From contig VGXO01000009.1 of assembly GCA_016873275.1 (NCBI GenBank), positions 1-64,000 of the forward strand: a DNA stretch of 64,000 nt, written 5' to 3'. The notes under the pieces were generated by a model. The model had not been told where the DNA came from and did not search any database. It was given only the letters and a program-made list of their open reading frames with translations. The DNA comes from Phycisphaerae bacterium. Lineage in GTDB: Bacteria; Planctomycetota; Phycisphaerae; Phycisphaerales; SM1A02. This document shows, one piece after another, positions 15,691 through 25,532 of the stretch; within the stretch, counting starts at the first letter, position 1; the number at the start of each line of letters is the position of its first letter. The position numbers and the translations under genes are program-made.

Positions 15691-16755
15691 CTACTCGAAC
15701 GACACGCCCAGCCCCTCCTCGCGGATCTTCTGGAGGAGGAGCTCGAGCTCGCCGAGCGTCGCCTGGAGGCGTCGCGCCGAGTCGACGAGGCTCTCGTGCA
15801 GGTCGGGGCTTCGGAGCAGTCGGCCCACCGTGCCGTCGCCCTCCGCGGCGAGGCGGGAGAGCGCCCCGAGCCGCTCGAGGAGGTCGCTCGCGCGATCGGC
15901 GACCGGCAGCACCGCCGCGACGAGCTCGCCCGCGCGGGCGTCGAAGGAGTCGACCGCGCGCCCCGCCTCGTCGCCGAGGGTCGTCGCGAGCGCCGAGAAG
16001 TCGTCGACCGCCTCGACGGTCTGCTCGAGCAGCACGCCCGCCCGCCATACGGCGTTCCGCACGTCCTGCTTGAGCTGCGCGTCGCCGAGCCACTCGGAGG
16101 CGAGCCCGATCGCGGTGCGGGCCTCGGCGAGGGTCGAGTTCATGCGGACGACGGTGGTTCGCAGGCTGCCTTCGACCGCCGCGGGATCCGCCGAGTCCGG
16201 ATCGACCTCCTCGACGAGCGAGTTCAGGTTGTCGGCGAGCCGCGTGAACGCCCGCGCCGAGGCGCGGAGGTCCTCGAGCGGCGCCGCGAGGCGCTCGTCG
16301 ATCGCCGCCGCGATCGCGCCGCCGAGACCAGCCGCCTTCCCGAAGATCAACGGCGGCGACTCCTGCGGCAGGACCTCCGGCTTCTCCGAGATCGGCAGCG
16401 GGATGACGAGGGTCAGCCGCGCCGAGCCGCCGAGGAGACCCGCCTCGACGTCGGCGGAGACGTTGGTGGGGATCGAGACCGTGCGGTCCACGCGGGCGAC
16501 CACGATCACCGGATGCTCCGGACGATCCGCGGCTGGATCGAGCCGCACGTCCTGCACCTCGCCGACGGGGACGCCGTTGAGCGTCACGGGGCTTCCCTTG
16601 CGGAGTCCGCCGCCCGAGTCGAACGCGACCTCGACGGTGTAGCGGGAGGTCACGACGCCGGTCAGCTCCCCGTAGAGGAGGAGCAGCGTCGCGAAGCCGG
16701 CGAGACCGCCGATGCCGGCGATCCCGATGAGGAGGTCCTTCGAGGAGGTTCGCAT
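15691..16755 (-). CDS. mlaD: MCE/MlaD-family lipid-transport substrate-binding protein
   Basis: 354 residues. A single N-terminal transmembrane segment (about 9-30, GIAGIGGLAGFATLLLLYG) anchors the protein; the MCE domain covers about 38-115 (YTVEVAFDSGGGLRKGSPVTLNGVPVGEV). The rest, about 160-345, is helical with coiled-coil character. MlaD-type proteins form periplasmic hexameric rings that pass phospholipids between the membranes. It follows the ABC ATPase gene by 30 bp on the same strand. The permease (MlaE) expected in such operons is not adjacent and must be encoded elsewhere. The stop is seven bases from the repeat array. Assignment to the MCE family is firm; the lipid substrate is unknown. 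Confidence 0.9.
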   Translation of the reverse strand: MRTSSKDLLIGIAGIGGLAGFATLLLLYGELTGVVTSRYTVEVAFDSGGGLRKGSPVTLNGVPVGEVQDVRLDPAADRPEHPVIVVARVDRTVSIPTNVSADVEAGLLGGSARLTLVIPLPISEKPEVLPQESPPLIFGKAAGLGGAIAAAIDERLAAPLEDLRASARAFTRLADNLNSLVEEVDPDSADPAAVEGSLRTTVVRMNSTLAEARTAIGLASEWLGDAQLKQDVRNAVWRAGVLLEQTVEAVDDFSALATTLGDEAGRAVDSFDARAGELVAAVLPVADRASDLLERLGALSRLAAEGDGTVGRLLRSPDLHESLVDSARRLQATLGELELLLQKIREEGLGVSFE

Positions 16756-16785
16756 GCGTGATCCGGCGAGGAAGGTAGCGGAGGA

Positions 16786-17634
16786 TCAGCTTCCTCGCCG
16801 GAAGGTCGCCGCGTCGGACGCCTCCGACGCGATCGCGGCGAGATCCTCCTCCGACGCCTCGCCGCGGAGGAACCGCTGCACCACCGGCTGATCGGTCTGG
16901 CGGAAGACCTCCGGCGCCGCGTCGAGCAGGATCCTGCCCTCGTGGAGCATGATCATCCGGTCGGCGACCTTGAACCCGCTCGCGAGGTCGTGGGTCACCA
17001 CCACGCTCGTCACCTTGAGCGACCGCTTGAGGCGGACGATCAGCTCGTTGATCAGGTCGGAGCGGATCGGGTCGAGCCCGGTGGTCGGCTCGTCGTAGAG
17101 GATGAGCTCGGGTCCGAGGACGATCGCCCGCGCGAGCGCCACCCGCTTCTGCTGCCCGCCGGAGAGCTGCGACGGCATCCGATCGACGAGGTCGGCGAGC
17201 CCGACGAGCCGCAGCGCCGTCCGCACGCGGTGCTCGGTCGCCTTGGGGTCCCCGACGCCCGCCTCCTGCAGCGGGAACGCCACGTTCTCCGCGACGGTGA
17301 GCGAGTCGAAGAGGGCGCCCTGCTGGAAGAGGTAGCCGACCCGACGCCGCACCGAGGCGAGGCGCGGCTCCGACCATTCGTCGATCCGCTCCTCGCCGAA
17401 CCAGACCTCGCCCGCGTCCGGCTTGAGGAGCCCGACGAGGAGCTTGAGCAGCACCGACTTGCCGGTGCCGCTCGGGCCAAGGACGACGGTGGTCTCGCCG
17501 GCGCGGAAGTCGAGGTCGATCCCCCGGAGGACCTCGAGGCGACCGAAGCCCTTGACGAGCCCGCGCACCGAGGCGGTCGCGCCGCGCCCGGGTCGCTCGG
17601 CAGGAGGGGCGAGACCGTGGGGCGGTTGCGGCAT
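16786..17634 (-). CDS. mlaF: ABC transporter ATP-binding protein, MlaF-type
   Basis: 282 residues. Walker A GPSGTGKS at 53-60, Q-loop LFQQGALFDSLTV, signature LSGGQQKR, Walker B ELILYDEPTTGLDP and switch His in VVTHDL. The QQGALFDSLTVxENVAFPL segment is typical of the MlaF/Mkl group that energises MCE lipid transporters. The adjacent mlaD gene supports this. The start ATG 17634 is 18 bp from the divergent Nudix GTG, leaving almost no promoter space. The C-terminal ~45 residues are acidic and extend beyond the nucleotide-binding domain. Confidence 0.9.
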   Translation of the reverse strand: MPQPPHGLAPPAERPGRGATASVRGLVKGFGRLEVLRGIDLDFRAGETTVVLGPSGTGKSVLLKLLVGLLKPDAGEVWFGEERIDEWSEPRLASVRRRVGYLFQQGALFDSLTVAENVAFPLQEAGVGDPKATEHRVRTALRLVGLADLVDRMPSQLSGGQQKRVALARAIVLGPELILYDEPTTGLDPIRSDLINELIVRLKRSLKVTSVVVTHDLASGFKVADRMIMLHEGRILLDAAPEVFRQTDQPVVQRFLRGEASEEDLAAIASEASDAATFRRGS

Positions 17635-17652
17635 CCTCGTATCATCGCGTCC

Positions 17653-18204
17653 GTGAGCGACGAGAGGCAAGTCCGCCGCCTCCACGCGGGGCGAGCCTTC
17701 GACGTGAACCTGCTCTCGTGGCGGGGTCGGGATGGTCGCCCGCTCGAGAAGGTGGTGATCCGCCACCGAGGCGCGGTCGCGGTGCTGCCGGTCCTCGACG
17801 ATGGGCGGCTCGTCCTCATCCGGAACTACCGGGTCACCCTCGAGGGATGGCTCATCGAGTTCTGCGCCGGAGGGATCGACGCGGGCGAGTCGGCGATCGA
17901 CGCGGCGAGACGCGAGCTCTCCGAGGAGACCGGCTACCGCGCGGGGGCGATCGAGCCGCTGACCTCGTTCTACACGGCGCCCGGATTCGCCGACGAGTGG
18001 ATGCAGGTCTTCGTGGCGGGGGACCTCGAGCCGGGCGACGCCCACCTCGAGCCCTACGAGCGCATCGAGGTGATGGCGCTTCCGCCCGAGGAGGTCGCCG
18101 CCCTCATCGCGTCGGGGGAGATCCGCGACGCGAAGACGATCGTCGCCTTCCACGCCTGGAACCTGCGGGGGCGACCGCGACCGACGCGGCGAGGTGGCGC
18201 GTGA
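17653..18204 (+). CDS. Nudix hydrolase, ADP-ribose pyrophosphatase type
   Basis: 183 residues. The Nudix box is complete: GGIDAGESAIDAARRELSEE followed by TGY, with the metal-binding RExxEE. Upstream VAVLPVLDDGRLVLIRNYRV and downstream SFYTAPGFADEWMQVF match the ADP-ribose/sugar-nucleotide pyrophosphatase (NudF) subgroup, which hydrolyses ADP-ribose to AMP and ribose 5-phosphate. GTG 17653 is the chosen start; upstream in-frame sequence is antisense to mlaF. Its TGA overlaps the GTG of the following protease gene by four bases (GTGA). Confidence 0.88.
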   Translation: MSDERQVRRLHAGRAFDVNLLSWRGRDGRPLEKVVIRHRGAVAVLPVLDDGRLVLIRNYRVTLEGWLIEFCAGGIDAGESAIDAARRELSEETGYRAGAIEPLTSFYTAPGFADEWMQVFVAGDLEPGDAHLEPYERIEVMALPPEEVAALIASGEIRDAKTIVAFHAWNLRGRPRPTRRGGA

Positions 18205-19256
18205 GGCGGTCGGCGGAGGATCCCGGCGAGGGCGAGTGGGTCCGCGACCGCGGCGCGTGGACCGACTCGCCGATGCGCTGGTCGATCCCCCTCGGAAGGC
18301 TCGCGGGGATCGAGATCCGGCTGCATCTGCTCTGGCCGTTCCTCGCCGCGATCGAGATGACCCGGGCGTGGCTCGGGCACTCCGCCCTCGGACCCGCGCC
18401 GACGGCGGCGGCGCTCGGATGCCTGCTCGCGTCGGTCCTCCTCCATGAGCTCGGGCACGTCGCGGCGTGCCGGCGGCTCGGCGGCACCGCGGACGAGATC
18501 CTGCTGTGGCCGCTCGGCGGGCTCGCCGCCTGCCGACCGCCGCACGACTGGTGGTCGAACCTCGTCGTCGCGATGGCGGGACCGCTCGTCAATCTGGCGC
18601 TCCTCCTCGCGGCGGGGCTCCTGCTCCTCGCGGCGGGCGCGCCCGCGTGGGGGGCGGCGTTCCCGCATCCGCTCGAGCCGGCGGCGGCGCTCGCCCTCGT
18701 CGGCGGCGGCGGATGGAAGGGCGTGGTCGTGCTGCTTGGGTGGGTGAACCTGATCCTTCTTCTCCTGAACCTCGTGCCGCTCATGCCCCTCGATGGAGGA
18801 CGCGTGGTGCAGGCGATCGCCTGGCGCAGGCGCGGCGAGCTCGACGCGACGATGCTCGCGATCCGCGTCGGGCAGGTCGCGGCGATCGTGCTGGGACTCG
18901 TCGGGCTCCTGATCGACCAGCTGGGGCTCGTCGCGATCGCGGTGATCGGCTGGCTCTGGGGCTGGCAGGTCTCCCGGGCGATCCGCCTCGGCGAGGGGGC
19001 TTCGCTCCGCGGCGATGGTCTTCCGGCCGGCGCCTTCGAGCCGAGCTCGGAGTGGACGGCGCCGCGGGCGAACGATCGCGCGGCGTCCCGCGCCGAGGAG
19101 AAGGCGGCGCGGGAGCGCGAGGCGCTCGCCCGCGAGCAGGTGGAGCTCGATCGGGTCCTCGAGAAGATCCAGCGCGAGGGTCTCGACAGCCTGAGCATCG
19201 CGGAGCGCCGAGTGCTCCGCCGCGCGACCACCCGACGGCGCCGCGACGAGGCGTGA
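18201..19256 (+). CDS. Site-2-type intramembrane metalloprotease (M50 family)
   Basis: 351 residues with about six membrane segments. Zinc ligands and catalytic residue are visible as H82-E-L-G-H86, and the second motif NLVPLMPLDGGR includes D198. Such proteases cleave membrane proteins within the bilayer; this one resembles the SpoIVFB/Rv-type group without a PDZ domain. After the last membrane helix (about 250) there is a charged linker (AASRAEEKAAREREALAREQ), then a C-terminal tail LDRVLEKIQREGLDSLSIAE with RRVLRRAT. Almost the same tail ends the rhomboid protease encoded next, 50 bp downstream. GTG 18201 overlaps the Nudix stop. Substrate unknown. Confidence 0.9.
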   Translation: MRRSAEDPGEGEWVRDRGAWTDSPMRWSIPLGRLAGIEIRLHLLWPFLAAIEMTRAWLGHSALGPAPTAAALGCLLASVLLHELGHVAACRRLGGTADEILLWPLGGLAACRPPHDWWSNLVVAMAGPLVNLALLLAAGLLLLAAGAPAWGAAFPHPLEPAAALALVGGGGWKGVVVLLGWVNLILLLLNLVPLMPLDGGRVVQAIAWRRRGELDATMLAIRVGQVAAIVLGLVGLLIDQLGLVAIAVIGWLWGWQVSRAIRLGEGASLRGDGLPAGAFEPSSEWTAPRANDRAASRAEEKAAREREALAREQVELDRVLEKIQREGLDSLSIAERRVLRRATTRRRRDEA

Positions 19257-19306
19257 GGTCGGCGGGGGCATCGCTACACTCCGCCGCCCTTCGCCCCCCG
19301 ACGCCC

Positions 19307-20389
19307 ATGGGTCTCCACGACCGCGACTACCTGCGCGATGCCCAACGATCCTCGGGCGGTCGCGCGCCGCGCGGTCCCGGCTGGTCGGTGACCACCTGGA
19401 TCATCGTCCTCTGCGTCGGGGTCTTCGTCCTCGACGGGTTCCTCCCCCGCGGGCGGGTGATGCTGCGGAACGACCTCGCGGAGAATCCCACGCTGCGGCA
19501 GGCCCGTCCGGAGAACTTCGGGACGACCGACTTCCAGCGGATTGGACCGCACGAGCTGCAGCGGATCGTCTTCCTCAAGGAGACCGGTCAGGCGGTGGGC
19601 ACGCAGGTGTTCACGGAGGTCCCGGTCCTCCAGAAGTTCCTGCAGTTCACGACCGCCCAGGCGCTGATCTACTTTTCCCCGAGCACCGGGCTCGACGGCG
19701 GGCAGTTCTGGCGGTTCCTCGGCTTCCAGTTCCTGCACGCGAACCTGTCGCACCTGCTCTTCAACATGCTCGGGCTCTACTTCTTCGGTCCGGCGGTCGA
19801 GCGATACCTCGGCGGCAAGCGGTTCCTCGCGTTCTATCTCCTCTGCGGGATCTGCGGCGGGCTGATGTACCTCGTCCTCAACGCCGGAGGCATCGCGGCG
19901 TCGCTCGCCTTCGGACCGGAGTTCCGGATCCCGGGGCTTCTCTTCAACAATCCCTACACGCCGCTCGTCGGCGCCTCCGCGGGCGTCTTCGGCGTGATCA
20001 TGGCGGGCGCGTTCCTCATCCCGAACGCGACGGTGCTCCTCTTCTTCGTGATCCCCATGCGCCTCGCGACGCTCGCCTACGCGCTCGTCGCGGTGGCGGT
20101 GCTGACGATCCTCATGCAGGGACGGAACGCCGGCGGCGAGGCGGCGCACCTCGGCGGCGCGATCGCGGGCTACTTCTTCATCCGCCGACCGCAGCATCTG
20201 CACGGCTTCTTCGACTTCCTCGGCCGCGTGGACCCCACCAGCGACCAGTTCCGCGGGCGCCGCGGCGGGCGACGCGCCGCGGACGTCGCGGAGGTGGACC
20301 GCATCCTCGAGAAGATCAACCGCGAGGGGCTCGCGCGGCTCACCGAGCGGGAGCGGCGGATCCTGCGGGAGGCGTCGCGCGGGCGCTGA
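19307..20389 (+). CDS. Rhomboid-family intramembrane serine protease
   Basis: 360 residues. The catalytic Ser is S224 in GASAGVFGV and the catalytic His is H281 in AHLGGAIAGYFF. An upstream HANLSHLLFNM loop matches the conserved rhomboid H-x-x-x-H/N segment. A membrane anchor near 27-45 is followed by an unusual ~100-residue extramembrane stretch (NDLAENPTLRQARPENFG to QFTTAQALIYF) before the core. The C-terminus VDRILEKINREGLARLTERE with RRILREAS is the DUF6576-like tail known from some bacterial rhomboids. The adjacent site-2-type protease has the same tail. Start ATG 19307 follows a TACACT hexamer by 28 bp. Confidence 0.92.
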   Translation: MGLHDRDYLRDAQRSSGGRAPRGPGWSVTTWIIVLCVGVFVLDGFLPRGRVMLRNDLAENPTLRQARPENFGTTDFQRIGPHELQRIVFLKETGQAVGTQVFTEVPVLQKFLQFTTAQALIYFSPSTGLDGGQFWRFLGFQFLHANLSHLLFNMLGLYFFGPAVERYLGGKRFLAFYLLCGICGGLMYLVLNAGGIAASLAFGPEFRIPGLLFNNPYTPLVGASAGVFGVIMAGAFLIPNATVLLFFVIPMRLATLAYALVAVAVLTILMQGRNAGGEAAHLGGAIAGYFFIRRPQHLHGFFDFLGRVDPTSDQFRGRRGGRRAADVAEVDRILEKINREGLARLTERERRILREASRGR

Positions 20390-20408: not shown

Positions 20409-21560
20409 ATGGCGACCCGCTTCACGGTGCTCGCGAGGAGCTCGACCACGCGGGCGCGGCTCGGTCGCCTCGAGACGCCCCATGGCGCGGTGGACACGCC
20501 GGCGTTCATGCCGGTCGCGACCGCCGGCTCGATCAAGGGGGTGCTTCCGGCGCAGGTGCGGGAGGTCGGCGCGGGGATGATCCTCGCGAACGCCTACCAC
20601 CTCCTGCTGCGCCCCGGCTCGAAGCGCGTCGCGGCGCTCGGCGGGCTGCACGAGTTCATGCGCTGGGATCGGCCGATCCTCACCGACTCGGGCGGCTACC
20701 AGGCGTTCTCGATGGCGGACCTCCTCTCGATCGACGAGGGCGGCTTCACCTTCCGCTCGTTCATCGATGGCTCGGCGATCCGGCTTGGTCCGCGCGAGTG
20801 CATGGAGGTGCAGAACGACCTCGGCGCCGACGTGATCATGCCGCTCGACGACTGCCCGCCCGCGGGCGCGGATCCGGCGCGGCTCGACCTCGCCCTCGAG
20901 CGGACCCACCGCTGGCTCGCCGAGTGCGTCGAGCATCACGCCCGACCCGAGGCGCAGGCGCTCTTCGGGATCGTGCAGGGCGGCGTGGATCCAGAGCGCC
21001 GCGCCCGATCGGTCGCGGCGGTGACCTCGCTTGACCTTCCCGGCTACGCGATCGGCGGCGTCGCGGTGGGGGAGGGACCGGGGGAGATCCACCGCACCGT
21101 CGCGGCGACGGCGCCGATGCTCCCGGAGGATCGACCCCGCTACCTGATGGGCGTCGGCTACGAGCGGGACATCGTCGCGGCGGTCGCGGCGGGGGTCGAC
21201 CTCTTCGACTGCGTCCTGCCGACCCGGAACGGGCGGAACGCCCGCGTCTTCACCCGGACGGGACCGCTCAACCTCCGCAATGCCCTCCACGCGGAGGACC
21301 GCGCCCCGATCGAGACCGGCTGCGATTGCCCCGCGTGCGGAGGCGGGTTCAGCCGCGGCTTCCTGCGGCATCTCTTCCATGCCGGCGAGATGCTCGGACC
21401 GATCCTGGCGTCGGTGCACAACCTCCGGCACTACCAACGCCTGATGCTGGACATCCGAGGGGCGATCCAGCAAGATGCATGGTCTTCCCTCGCCGAGGGT
21501 TGGCCAGTCCTGGCCGCCTCGTCGGGCCCGCCATCCTCCCTTCGGAACCCGGCTCCATGA
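20409..21560 (+). CDS. tgt: Queuine tRNA-guanine transglycosylase
   Basis: 383 residues, the normal length. It exchanges G34 of GUN-anticodon tRNAs for preQ1 on the queuosine pathway. DSGGYQAFS holds the base-binding Asp, D267 in FDCVLPTRNGR is the nucleophile, and CDCPACGGGFSRGFLRHLFH is the C-x-C-x2-C-x~22-H zinc site. It lies 19 bp after the rhomboid gene and its TGA overlaps the yajC ATG (ATGA, 21557-21560), the common tgt-yajC-secDF order. The C-terminal ~25 residues (AEGWPVLAASSGPPSSLRNP) are longer than usual. The window's tRNA-Asp(GTC) is a potential substrate. Confidence 0.96.
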   Translation: MATRFTVLARSSTTRARLGRLETPHGAVDTPAFMPVATAGSIKGVLPAQVREVGAGMILANAYHLLLRPGSKRVAALGGLHEFMRWDRPILTDSGGYQAFSMADLLSIDEGGFTFRSFIDGSAIRLGPRECMEVQNDLGADVIMPLDDCPPAGADPARLDLALERTHRWLAECVEHHARPEAQALFGIVQGGVDPERRARSVAAVTSLDLPGYAIGGVAVGEGPGEIHRTVAATAPMLPEDRPRYLMGVGYERDIVAAVAAGVDLFDCVLPTRNGRNARVFTRTGPLNLRNALHAEDRAPIETGCDCPACGGGFSRGFLRHLFHAGEMLGPILASVHNLRHYQRLMLDIRGAIQQDAWSSLAEGWPVLAASSGPPSSLRNPAP

Positions 21561-21976
21561 CCCTCGCTTCGTTGTCCGAGTTGGCGATCCTCGCGATCTC
21601 GCGCCTCCCTCAAGGTCCCGATGCCGCCGGCACGCCCGCCGCGGCGCCGGCGGCGGGGGCGCCCGCGGGGGCGCCGGGCGCCGCGCCCGCCGATCCCGGG
21701 TTCAACATCCTGCTCTTCGTCCTGCCGATCCTCGTGCTGATGGTGGTCTTCTCCGCCGTCGCGCAGCGGAAGGAGAAGAAGCGACGCGAGGCGCTCCTCT
21801 CCGCCGTCAAGAAGCACGACCGCGTGATGACCACCGGCGGCGTCATCGGCACGGTCGTCGAGACCTCGGCGGACACCGTGGTCCTCCGCATCGACGAGAA
21901 CTCCAGCGTCCGGATGACCTTCGCCCGCTCCGCCGTGCAGCAGATCCTCAAGGAGGGCGGCGAGGCCGGCGCCTGA
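21557..21976 (+). CDS. yajC: Preprotein translocase subunit YajC
   Basis: 139 residues. An Ala/Pro/Gly-rich N-terminus (about 25-50) precedes one membrane segment NILLFVLPILVLMVVFSAV, then the YajC core RKEKKRREALLSAVKKHDRV followed by MTTGGVIGTV. YajC joins SecDF in the accessory Sec complex. Position between tgt and secDF is the conserved bacterial order. The ATG overlaps the tgt stop by four bases, and secDF begins 55 bp downstream. Confidence 0.93.
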   Translation: MTLASLSELAILAISRLPQGPDAAGTPAAAPAAGAPAGAPGAAPADPGFNILLFVLPILVLMVVFSAVAQRKEKKRREALLSAVKKHDRVMTTGGVIGTVVETSADTVVLRIDENSSVRMTFARSAVQQILKEGGEAGA

Positions 21977-22031: not shown

Positions 22032-25000
22032 ATGTCCAAGCTCGTCTTCAAGTTCCTCCTGATCGCCGCCGTCACCGCGTTCTGCGTCTGGGAGATCTTC
22101 CCGATCGACCAGCAGATCCGGCTCGGCAAGGACCTCCGGGGCGGCGTGAGCCTGACCTACGCGGTCAACGTGCCGGAGGGCTCCGGCGAGGAGGTGCTCA
22201 CGCAGGTGATCGAGGTCCTGAAGGACCGCGTCAACCCGCAGGGCGTGCTCGACATCTCGATGGAGCCGCAGGGCGCCGACCGCATCGAGGTCGTGATGCC
22301 TCTTCCGAATGCCGCGGTGCGGGCGCTGCAGCTCGGATTCCGCGACACGCTGGCGGATCTCCTCCGCTGCACGAACATCCGCCCGGCGGAGCTCGACGCG
22401 GCGCTCACCGAGGGCACCCTCGCCACCACGCACGCCTGCCTTGCCGCCGCCGAGACGCTGCAGGCGCTCCAGAAGGAGCACGACGACCTTCGCGAGGCGA
22501 GGATCGCCCTGCAGGAGGCGGTGCTCGCCCAGGCCGACCCGACGGTGATCTCCGGTCTCGAGGACCGCGTGGTCGACGGCGAGATCCGCCTCGAGCGCCA
22601 GCGGAGCGCGCTCCTCCGCCCGCTGCCCGAGCCGCGGATCCTCCGGATGCTCGCCCTCGACCAGACCAAGCCCGTCCAGCTCGACGCCGAGGGTCGCCGC
22701 ATCGACGGTCCCGACGGCCAGCCGCTCCGCGATCCCTCGCCCCGCGAGGAGGCGCTCGCGGCGCTCGAGGCGGAGTATCCCGGGCAGCGCGACCGCATCG
22801 CGGCGGTGGTCGCCTCCTACGACGACTACGCCTCGAAGCGCACGGGACTCGACGACCCGGAGGACCTCAAGCGGCTCCTCCGCGGCGCGGGCGTCCTCGA
22901 GTTCCGCCTCGCGGTCGATCCGGAGGCTCCCGAGGGCGTCAATGTCGAGGACATGCGGAAGCAGCTCGCCGAGCGCGGACCCCGCAACACCGACAGCGTG
23001 ATCGCCCGCTGGTTCGAGGTGCATGACCTCAAGCAGTGGTACGACGATCCCGCCCAGCTCCAGGCGCTGCAGGCGGATCCCGCCGCCTACTTCGCCCGGC
23101 GCGACCTCGTCGCGGGAGAGAAGGACGGGCGCTACTACGTCCTCCTCTACGTCATCCCCTCGAAGTCGATGACCCACGCCGCGGACCGACCGTGGTCGAT
23201 CCGCAACGCCGGTCGGACCCGCGACGAGCTCGGTCGCACCGCGGTCGCCTTCGCGATGGACCAGGGCGGCGCCGCCCAGCTCGGCGCGCTCACCGGGCCG
23301 AACGTCGGGGCGGAGATGGCGATCGTCCTCGACGAGAAGGTCTACGGGGCGCCGACGCTCCAGAGCCGCATCTCCTCGAACGGTCAGATCACCGGCAACT
23401 ACGGCGACGAGGAGATCAACTACCTGATCCGCGTCCTCGCCGCCGGCGCCCTCGAGGCCCGCCTGAGCCCCGAGCCGATCGCGGTGAGCGTCCTCGGTCC
23501 CTCGGTCGGTCGCGAGAACCTCGCGATCGGTCTCCAGGCGGTGGGGCTCTCGGTCATCGTCGTCATGCTGACGATGCTCGGCTACTACTTCTTCGCCGGG
23601 CTCGTGGCGGACATCGCCCTCCTCGTCGGCTCGACCATCATCTTCGGGGTGATGGCGATGATCGACGGGACCTTCACGCTGCCCGGTCTCGCCGGCATCG
23701 CGCTCTCGATCGGCATGGCGGTCGACTCGAACGTGCTCATCTACGAGCGCATCCGCGAGGAGATGGTCAACAACCGCGAGAAGCTCCGCGACGCGGTGCG
23801 GATCGGCTACTCGAAGGCGCTGAGCGCGATCATCGACGGCAACATCACGAACCTGATCGTCTGCTTCGTGCTCTACCAGACCGCGGCGACCGAGGTGAAG
23901 GGCTTCGCGCTCACCCTCGCGATCGGCATCCTCGCGACCCTCTTCTCGGCGCTCTACGTCACGCGGGCGATCTTCGAGCTCTACGTCGACGTGTTCAAGT
24001 GCCGGTCGCTCCCGATGCTCCCGACGGTCTTCCCGGGGATCCACCGGGCGCTCGAGCCGAGGATCGACTGGCTGCGGCTCCGCTGGATCACGATCCCGGG
24101 CAGCTGGATCGTGGCGATCGCGGGGCTGGTCCTCTTCCTCGCGACCGGTCGCGACATGCTCGAGACCGAGTTCCGCGGCGGCGTGAGCATGGTGATGACC
24201 ACCCGCGCCGAGCCCGACGGCTCGGCGCTCCTCGTCAAGCGGCAGGAGGTCGAGGAGCGGATCCGGGCGATCGGCGAGGCGGCGTCGGATCCGGCGCTCC
24301 AGCAGCTCGCCCAGGCGAAGGTGCTCACCGTCGGCGAGTCCTCGCCCGAGCTCGGCGCCTCGAGCTTCAACATCAAGGTGGCGAACCCGCCCGCCGCGGG
24401 CGCCGACGAGGCGTTCACTGCCGCGATGGTGGCGGCGGTGGTCGCGGAGTTCGGCGACGAGATGGACGTGGTGCGACCGGTCGCCTTCGCCGGCTCGACC
24501 GACGCGGCGCACGCCGACCGCACCTTCCCGATCGAGAAGTCGATGCTCGCGGAGGTCCTGCGTCGTCCGTCGGCGCCCGTCCGCAGCGTCGAGGACTTCC
24601 GCGGCGGCGTGGCGGTGCTCGTCGAGGGGCTCGAGCCTCCGCTCTCCCTTGACGACGTCGCGGCGCGGATCGACCGCATGCGCCGCCAGCCCGACTACTC
24701 CGACGCGGTCGGACGCCGCGCCGAGGTCATCGGGCTCGTGCCCGCGGACGCCGCCAGACCCGCGGCGGGCTGGCGCGACGTGGCGATCGTCACGACCGAT
24801 CCGGAGATCAACGCCTTCGACGTCGAGCTCGACGTCTGGGACCGCGACCTCGCCGCGAGCGAATGGCGGGTCGTGCAGGCGGCGCTCACCCGTCCGGCGA
24901 GCCTCGAGCAGGTGAGCAGCTTCTCGGCGAGCGTCGCGGAGAACCTCGCCGCGGGCGCGGTGGTGGCGGTGATCCTCAGCCTCGTCGGGATGCTGGTCTA

Positions 25001-25532
25001 CATCTGGGCGAGGTTCGGCTCGCTCCGCTACTCGGCGGCGGCGGTGGCGGCGCTGGTCTTCAACGTGTTCATGTGCCTCGGGGCGCTCGCGGTCTCGCTG
25101 CGGCTCGCCCCGCTCGGCTTCGCCTCGCAGATCAAGCTCGAGGAGTTCCGCGTCGACATCAACGTGGTCGCGGGTCTGCTGACCATCATCGGCTACGGCC
25201 TCAACGACACGATCGTCATCCTCGACCGCATCCGCGAGAACCGCGGGAAGCTCTCCTACGTGTCGCGCGAGGTCGTGAACCGCTCCATCAACCAGACCTT
25301 CAGCCGCACGATCCTGACCGGCGGCACCACCTTCGTCACCGCGCTGATCCTCTACTGGCTCGGCGGCACCGGCATCCGGCCGTTCGCGTTCACCTTCGTG
25401 GTAGGTCTCGTCTTCGCGACCTACAGCTCGGTGATGATCGCGGCGCCCCTGACCTGGAGCCGCAAGGACCAGCAGGGGCACGGAGGCGGGGCGACGAGCG
25501 ACGCCGAGGGTCGGGAGATCGTGCCCGCCTAG
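22032..25532 (+). CDS. secDF: Fused protein-export membrane protein SecDF
   Basis: 1166 residues in one chain, SecD-like up to about 690 and SecF-like after that. SecDF uses the proton gradient to pull translocated proteins across the membrane. The SecD half starts with a membrane helix and GKDLRGGVSLTYAV, has the GPNVGAEMA region and a membrane block containing GIALSIGMAVDSNVLIYERI. The SecF half shows ETEFRGGVSMVM and GYGLNDTIVILDRIRENR followed by FSRTILTGGTTF. The first periplasmic domain has a long charged, coiled-coil-like insert (about 110-290, HDDLREARIALQEAVLAQ), which makes it longer than the ~760-residue fused proteins of other phyla. Last gene of the tgt-yajC-secDF run. Confidence 0.95.
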   Translation: MSKLVFKFLLIAAVTAFCVWEIFPIDQQIRLGKDLRGGVSLTYAVNVPEGSGEEVLTQVIEVLKDRVNPQGVLDISMEPQGADRIEVVMPLPNAAVRALQLGFRDTLADLLRCTNIRPAELDAALTEGTLATTHACLAAAETLQALQKEHDDLREARIALQEAVLAQADPTVISGLEDRVVDGEIRLERQRSALLRPLPEPRILRMLALDQTKPVQLDAEGRRIDGPDGQPLRDPSPREEALAALEAEYPGQRDRIAAVVASYDDYASKRTGLDDPEDLKRLLRGAGVLEFRLAVDPEAPEGVNVEDMRKQLAERGPRNTDSVIARWFEVHDLKQWYDDPAQLQALQADPAAYFARRDLVAGEKDGRYYVLLYVIPSKSMTHAADRPWSIRNAGRTRDELGRTAVAFAMDQGGAAQLGALTGPNVGAEMAIVLDEKVYGAPTLQSRISSNGQITGNYGDEEINYLIRVLAAGALEARLSPEPIAVSVLGPSVGRENLAIGLQAVGLSVIVVMLTMLGYYFFAGLVADIALLVGSTIIFGVMAMIDGTFTLPGLAGIALSIGMAVDSNVLIYERIREEMVNNREKLRDAVRIGYSKALSAIIDGNITNLIVCFVLYQTAATEVKGFALTLAIGILATLFSALYVTRAIFELYVDVFKCRSLPMLPTVFPGIHRALEPRIDWLRLRWITIPGSWIVAIAGLVLFLATGRDMLETEFRGGVSMVMTTRAEPDGSALLVKRQEVEERIRAIGEAASDPALQQLAQAKVLTVGESSPELGASSFNIKVANPPAAGADEAFTAAMVAAVVAEFGDEMDVVRPVAFAGSTDAAHADRTFPIEKSMLAEVLRRPSAPVRSVEDFRGGVAVLVEGLEPPLSLDDVAARIDRMRRQPDYSDAVGRRAEVIGLVPADAARPAAGWRDVAIVTTDPEINAFDVELDVWDRDLAASEWRVVQAALTRPASLEQVSSFSASVAENLAAGAVVAVILSLVGMLVYIWARFGSLRYSAAAVAALVFNVFMCLGALAVSLRLAPLGFASQIKLEEFRVDINVVAGLLTIIGYGLNDTIVILDRIRENRGKLSYVSREVVNRSINQTFSRTILTGGTTFVTALILYWLGGTGIRPFAFTFVVGLVFATYSSVMIAAPLTWSRKDQQGHGGGATSDAEGREIVPA

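Follow-up and report, generated by a model that had tools for sequence, protein, structure and literature searches.

A C-terminal tail of about 30 residues, recognised by Pfam as DUF6576 (PF20216), is common to two non-homologous intramembrane proteases that are encoded side by side in the DNA of a Phycisphaerae bacterium (GenBank assembly GCA_016873275.1, contig VGXO01000009.1, positions 1 to 64,000; the whole of this 64,000-nucleotide stretch is referred to here as the window). One of the two proteins is a site-2-type metalloprotease of the M50 family and the other is a rhomboid serine protease. The tail is ancient and widespread among Planctomycetota, Verrucomicrobiota and Bacteroidota, and its carriers include catalytically dead relatives of both enzymes as well as stand-alone M domains of the signal recognition particle (SRP). 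Because it is found on unrelated folds, is kept without catalysis and ends a stand-alone SRP M domain, the favoured reading is that the tail is a cytosolic docking module that would tie helix- or signal-binding carriers to one shared partner, a proposal that we consider about evenly poised between right and wrong.

The two window proteins and their shared tail

The M50 protein is encoded on the plus strand at 18201..19256 and the rhomboid, on the same strand, at 19307..20389. The start of the M50 gene is uncertain and lies either at GTG 18201, which overlaps the stop codon of a NUDIX-like gene upstream (GTGA), or at ATG 18273. Pfam assigns the first protein to Peptidase_M50 (PF02163, 70.9 bits) and the second to Rhomboid (PF01694, 98.3 bits), and in Foldseek comparisons the predicted M50 model matches mjS2P (3b4r, E 2.4e-9) and SpoIVFB (8vjm, E 4.2e-6), while the rhomboid model has the GlpG fold. 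The catalytic domains are thus non-homologous, as an earlier, sequence-only reading of this DNA had held. Judged by alignment, both proteins keep their catalytic residues: HELGH and PLDGG (the HExxH motif and the third ligand, Asp) are intact in the M50 protein (alignment A3), and the rhomboid retains the GASAG serine (S224) and the AHLGG histidine (H281) at invariant columns of alignment A4. Neither a CBS nor a PDZ domain was found in the window M50 protein. Assignment of the rhomboid to the rhombosortases (TIGR03902) was rejected, the score being 45.3 bits against a curated cut-off of 84, and an NCBIfam search of the window proteins returned no further family for the tail.

The M50 protein ends in ...ELDRVLEKIQREGLDSLSIAERRVLRRATTRRRRDEA, with the stop at 19256, and the rhomboid in ...EVDRILEKINREGLARLTERERRILREASRGR, with the stop at 20389; translation of the open reading frames (ORFs) bears out both the place and the sequences given for the two tails in the earlier reading. 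Eighteen of 30 residues are identical in an ungapped alignment, and the BLOSUM62 score of 87 compares with a mean of -13.5 (standard deviation 12.9, maximum 43) for 20,000 shuffles, corresponding to a z of 7.8. For the kinship of the tails, shared membership of a curated Pfam family is, among sequence comparisons, more telling than the shuffle score: DUF6576 reaches 30.2 bits in the M50 protein and 36.3 bits in the rhomboid, both above the curated gathering score of 27.3 bits, and the tail is therefore a real module common to the two proteases. The matches from the Pfam genome search lie at 19128..19220 (plus strand, 31.9 bits, above the cut-off) and 20270..20380 (plus strand, 40.2 bits), and the Pfam match stops 11 residues short of the C-terminus in the M50 protein and two residues short in the rhomboid. 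These are the only two copies of DUF6576 in the 3.23-Mb source genome (Pfam search, E up to 10), where the tail is absent from a further rhomboid and from the other M50 loci.

AlphaFold models were available for proteins from named contigs that align to the window proteins, with a mean predicted local distance difference test score (pLDDT) of 89.7 and 90.3 for the two. In the 327-residue form of the M50 protein, the tail helices span residues 266-302 and 309-326, with a pLDDT mostly of 88-97 that falls below 50 in the preceding linker; the second helix extends to the C-terminus, beyond the stretch covered by Pfam. The rhomboid tail helices occupy residues 324-340 and 347-359. Both tails are modelled as two helices, with a short turn at an invariant glycine and an S-L-T/S segment (pLDDT mostly above 90), and in both models a lower-confidence stretch connects the tail to the membrane core. 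The tail is predicted, with confidence, to be a helical hairpin of about 30 residues on a flexible linker. A profile search for a solved structure of the tail gave short chance matches only; in the best of them (E 0.0085) the matched segment was a set of helical repeats in an unrelated protein.

Distribution and carriers of the tail

DUF6576 was present in 41/41 relatives by genome search and in 142 of 149 genomes drawn across Planctomycetota, in 136 of them above the cut-off. Sampling of the phylum to which a Mucilaginibacter belongs found it in 118/118 genomes, and sampling of that of a Verrucomicrobiales metagenome-assembled genome (MAG) in 66 of 79. Among 14 control genomes only a Bacteroides matches at E 0.01 and nine match at E 10; the B. 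subtilis control gave no match at E 0.01. A scan of named contigs with the rhomboid alignment, in which the records are mostly MAGs, put the window with Phycisphaerales-like Planctomycetota and located tailed rhomboids beyond this phylum in Verrucomicrobiota, Kiritimatiellota, Bacteroidota, Ignavibacteria and Gemmatimonadota (best 80 of 555 matches). Two loci in this material, L164 (labelled Leptolyngbya) and L196 (labelled Limnohabitans), carry the planctomycete gene pair and group with planctomycetes in the tree; their bins are presumably mislabelled. All 13 genomes checked for the purpose have two rhomboids, only one of which matches DUF6576. In eight genomes of the family (G003, G004, G006, G007, G009, G019, G020 and G024), the single DUF6576 match of the whole genome is on a rhomboid.

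By our own profiles, 106 tailed frames were found in 80 fetched regions and the window, comprising 65 rhomboids, 40 M50 proteins and one SRP M domain. The 79 named loci hold 101 tailed frames (79 rhomboids and 22 M50s); three of these loci (L140, L141 and L184) are on the same contigs as order-level genomes, and the named and order-level sets are not additive. The earlier reading would, by its own account, be refuted if the tail proved a common feature of many unrelated membrane proteins of the phylum. This holds only in part: for its reach, which is phylum-wide, and not for its carriers, which are nearly always rhomboids or M50 proteins (65 and 40 of the 106). Pfam recognises both Rhomboid and DUF6576 in 57/57 tailed rhomboids of A4, DUF6576 in 21 and Peptidase_M50 in 17 of the 22 full-length tailed M50s of A3, and DUF6576 in 20/20 tails of alignment A1. 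The tail contributes six of 11 invariant columns in A3 and five of 16 in A4.

In Bacteroidota the tail usually sits on the second member of a pair of neighbouring rhomboid genes. Two rhomboid genes lie side by side, with the tail on the second only, at L188, L190-L192, L197, L201, L202, L204-L207 and L213-L215. The best-scoring DUF6576 copies (67-78 bits) are on single-pass proteins of 84-108 residues from the same phylum (L284, L286 and L287). Proteins composed of a single-pass helix and DUF6576 are encoded at L284 (1384-1641), L286 (1501-1752), L287 (1501-1824) and, as another small one, L418 (1132-1590); at L284 and L286 the gene sits between what we take to be DksA/TraR-like and lspA-like genes. 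Two further proteins, at L419 and L421, have the tail with no rhomboid match or a sub-threshold one, and appear multi-helical by eye. Rhomboid-type proteins are carried by 29/29 newly read verrucomicrobial loci. No tailed M50 was found outside planctomycete genomes among the loci read, most bacteroidete and many verrucomicrobial matches being unread. The short, domain-less L228 and L242 and the fragments L232 and L283 are truncated or have a broken frame and stay outside the classes, while an 812-residue repeat protein with a weak internal match (L429) and two matches near E 0.01 (L422 and L427) look like chance.

Stand-alone SRP M domains

The SRP M-domain carrier, from genome G057, matches PF02978 at 60.9 bits and DUF6576 at 29.6 bits. 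In all seven genomes of its planctomycete family (G057, G153, G169 and G316-G319; loci L320-L326), a normal Ffh is accompanied by a second, stand-alone M domain, which in four genomes lies on the ffh contig, within about 3 kb. These proteins have neither the GTPase part nor the C-terminal stretch of Ffh. By our own profile 7/7 stand-alone M domains end in the tail, which is absent from all seven Ffh proteins of the family; the Pfam DUF6576 scores on six of them are 29.6, 31.0, 26.1, 23.8, 18.8 and 17.0 bits. A GSG-like segment after RIA is altered in most of the stand-alone M domains. Because this segment, which we take to serve RNA binding, is changed, the proteins may have lost RNA binding and kept helix binding.

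Tailed proteins lacking catalytic residues

Active-site losses were counted from alignments. Twelve of 74 tailed M50s lack HExxH (with, for example, REWVR, HEVST, HELAR or HDAAR in its place), and the losses number at least three on the tree, where 10 of the 12 group together and several long branches leave the exact number unsure. In 21 of 215 distinct tailed rhomboids, one or both of the catalytic residues (serine and histidine) are absent from the aligned columns, and some of these proteins have a weak Pfam rhomboid domain or none. A pseudo-rhomboid group of tailed rhomboid-like proteins without the catalytic serine and/or histidine was seen in Verrucomicrobiota (L327-L329, L332, L336, L337 and L342). 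As far as alignments can tell, the tail is conserved as strongly as the catalytic residues and does not need catalysis.

Gene neighbourhood and history of the tail

The gene pair itself is well conserved, a point that the sequence-only reading had proposed for checking: a tailed M50 gene and a tailed rhomboid gene are adjacent and on the same strand in 42 distinct pairs, with the M50 gene first in 40. In the window the pair lies on the plus strand between a NUDIX-like hydrolase gene, the conserved upstream neighbour (17656..18204, start uncertain; neighbour scan and ORF list), and a tgt-like gene, the conserved downstream neighbour (20409..21560), followed on the same strand by a yajC-like gene (21551..21976, start approximate) and a fused secD-secF-like gene (22032..25532; 1166 aa), the last three from the ORF list and synteny scan. 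The names of these neighbours are our assumptions from reading the sequences, tgt being presumably queuine tRNA-ribosyltransferase.

The order NUDIX-M50-rhomboid-tgt-yajC-secDF recurs in most order-level loci. The 43 order-level loci with the tail include 37 with a tailed rhomboid, of which 32 have tgt or secDF nearby and 22 also hold a tailed M50; in 15/43 a tailed rhomboid occurs without a tailed M50 in the fetched region, and L091 has a tailed M50 beside an untailed rhomboid. Elsewhere in the class and phylum (38 loci), tgt or secDF is found in none, and both tailed genes occur in one, about 9 kb apart. The Sec neighbourhood within the order hints at a partner, and is suggestive only.

Two other features were noted upstream of the pair. 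Genes resembling those for MlaD (PF02470) and an ABC ATPase occupy the minus strand at 15691-18153 and point away from the NUDIX-M50-rhomboid run, and the MlaD-like gene is conserved alongside this run in many relatives; its end, QKIREEGLGVSFE, resembles the tail, yet gave no DUF6576 match in the Pfam scan, and the likeness was put down to chance. The segment 14366-15460 contains repeated DNA blocks, with long spurious frames on both strands and the same peptide several times, and looks like a GC-rich repeat array.

The tails of 42 pairs were compared for signs of exchange. Identity is 0.475 between the M50 and rhomboid tails of the same genome and 0.457 between those of different genomes (permutation p 0.015), and it reaches 0.488 among M50 tails and 0.550 among rhomboid tails. 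The nearest neighbour of a tail is of the same protein type in 87% of cases and is its own partner in only 5/84, and for this reason the sequences give no sign of recent exchange between neighbours; the weak excess within genomes may stem from kinship or composition. One early exchange, before the phylum diversified, may have taken place. Since rhomboid tails occur in many phyla and M50 tails, as far as seen, only in Planctomycetota, the simpler guess is that the tail moved once, long ago, from rhomboid to M50.

Possible function of the tail

The docking reading supposes that the tail brings rhomboid, site-2 protease and SRP M domain onto one cytosolic partner. The folds of these main carriers would all bind transmembrane or signal helices, and whatever they bind, cut or uncut, would be passed by the tail to the partner, most plausibly a membrane-protein insertion or quality-control machine, for which an AAA+ protease and the Sec apparatus of the neighbouring genes would be examples. 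The window rhomboid and M50 protein would then be two separate entry points to this partner, not necessarily for the same substrate. The two proteases may act jointly on one target, as the sequence-only reading suggested, but the tail does not demand it, given the 15 order-level loci with only a tailed rhomboid, L091 with only a tailed M50, and the dead tailed enzymes of several lineages.

Several observations weigh against docking. The neighbourhoods yielded no partner gene, and among 82 neighbour frames of tailed genes outside the order (82/154 candidates, all planctomycete and none verrucomicrobial, chosen by a rule of ORF length and GC position that admits some non-genes) no family occurs in more than three. 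Dead carriers have lower-scoring tails than active carriers do, with medians of 37.9 vs 46.5 bits for M50s (p 0.001) and 40.9 vs 47.9 bits for rhomboids (p 0.003), so that constraint on the tail may be relaxing in dead carriers. Only two of the six scanned M-domain proteins exceed the DUF6576 cut-off, the others resting on our own profile. The single-pass carriers of Bacteroidota (L284, L286, L287 and L418) are compatible with a docking tag but do not fit a general binding of transmembrane helices by the carriers. Finally, the tail is probably cytosolic by analogy with GlpG and SpoIVFB, and this placement rests on the topology of those two proteins, with both C-termini presumably in the cytosol.

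Alternatively, the hairpin could be a self- or cross-association domain, through which rhomboid and M50 tails, or identical carriers, pair into a membrane complex. The two predicted helices and the adjacent, co-directional pair in 42 distinct cases would suit such a role, which we nevertheless regard as rather unlikely: the 15 order-level loci whose fetched region contains a tailed rhomboid but lacks a tailed M50 speak against cross-pairing, as do the eight family genomes with a single DUF6576 match, on a rhomboid, which indicate that it is not a general role. Self-pairing may occur. As for oligomerisation, the similar-sized but unrelated SHOCT tail failed a test for it (PMC3581485), an argument by analogy only. 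The extreme C-terminal position on proteins that are mostly membrane-bound could also mean that the tail is a stabilising or regulatory cap intrinsic to its carrier, acting by membrane-surface or lipid contact or by autoinhibition, with no dedicated partner. We think this improbable, as the tail is common to unrelated folds, dead enzymes, single-pass proteins and an SRP M domain, and the low-confidence linkers of the models suggest no fixed docking on the core.

The remaining explanations concern how two neighbouring genes came to end alike. The earlier reading had proposed transfer of the tail between these neighbours. Recent transfer or gene conversion would account for the slightly higher identity within genomes, but this excess is tiny and explicable by base composition or kinship, the predominance of same-type nearest neighbours runs counter to it, and the two kinds of tailed gene are found separately, too, over the phylum and likewise outside the order; it is very improbable. 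A chance or compositional likeness of two Arg/Glu-rich C-termini might be expected of short, charged, GC-rich coding sequence, and is excluded by scores above the curated cut-off in both proteins, by the occurrence of the family in every relative searched and by the z value of their alignment.

A broader form of the docking proposal, which we advance only tentatively and think doubtful, is that DUF6576 marks a pathway by which Planctomycetota, Verrucomicrobiota, Bacteroidota and their kin dislocate membrane proteins or control their quality, a bacterial counterpart of endoplasmic-reticulum-associated degradation. Three unrelated helix-binding folds, active or dead, would share one cytosolic machine through an interchangeable C-terminal hairpin, and in Phycisphaerales two such receptors would be encoded within the tgt-yajC-secDF cluster.

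Comparison with known systems

To our knowledge, rhomboids are ubiquitous in bacteria, and for most of them no role is known. Where a widespread tail also occurs on site-2 proteases and an SRP M domain and is kept on dead enzymes, the role of the rhomboid becomes a question of what the tail binds. Both window tails match DUF6576, a short, C-terminal family whose Pfam entry gives no function. The literature search found no paper naming DUF6576, most subscription journals being outside its coverage; nor did titles and the starts of abstracts reveal a paper on such a tail for rhomboids together with Planctomycetes, Bacteroidetes, pseudoproteases or site-2 proteases, or for the SRP M domain together with Planctomycetes. 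DUF6576 itself is already in Pfam; its combinations with M50 and SRP M domains, its persistence on pseudoproteases and the gene pair are, as far as checked, undescribed.

The window M50 protein has its fold in common with SpoIVFB and other type III site-2 proteases, and differs in having DUF6576 in place of the CBS domain that we take SpoIVFB to have, and in its Sec neighbours. The SHOCT domain (PF09851) is likewise a module of two helices at the C-terminus, short and attached to many unrelated proteins, with a function described as unknown (PMC3581485). Kinship with SHOCT was rejected, with an hhalign probability of 1.1% and no SHOCT match when 20 tails were compared with Pfam (E up to 5).

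The closest tested precedents for the docking reading, by analogy, are YqgP with FtsH and the SHP tail of Dfm1. In B. subtilis, the rhomboid YqgP serves as a non-catalytic substrate adaptor of FtsH, presenting membrane substrates to this AAA protease (PMC7231995). Its catalysis-independent role resembles the one proposed here, although YqgP relies on an N-terminal cytosolic domain (PMC7231995). The cytoplasmic SHP tail of Dfm1, a rhomboid pseudoprotease of the Derlin type, recruits the AAA+ ATPase Cdc48/p97 (PMC8641752). The likeness to such AAA+-recruiting tails of the Derlin/RHBDL4 type is one of analogy: Dfm1 is eukaryotic and uses a short linear motif (PMC8641752), whereas DUF6576 is a predicted helical hairpin shared with site-2 proteases. 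The tailed dead enzymes show that pseudoproteases have arisen in bacteria more than once, a parallel to derlins and iRhoms.

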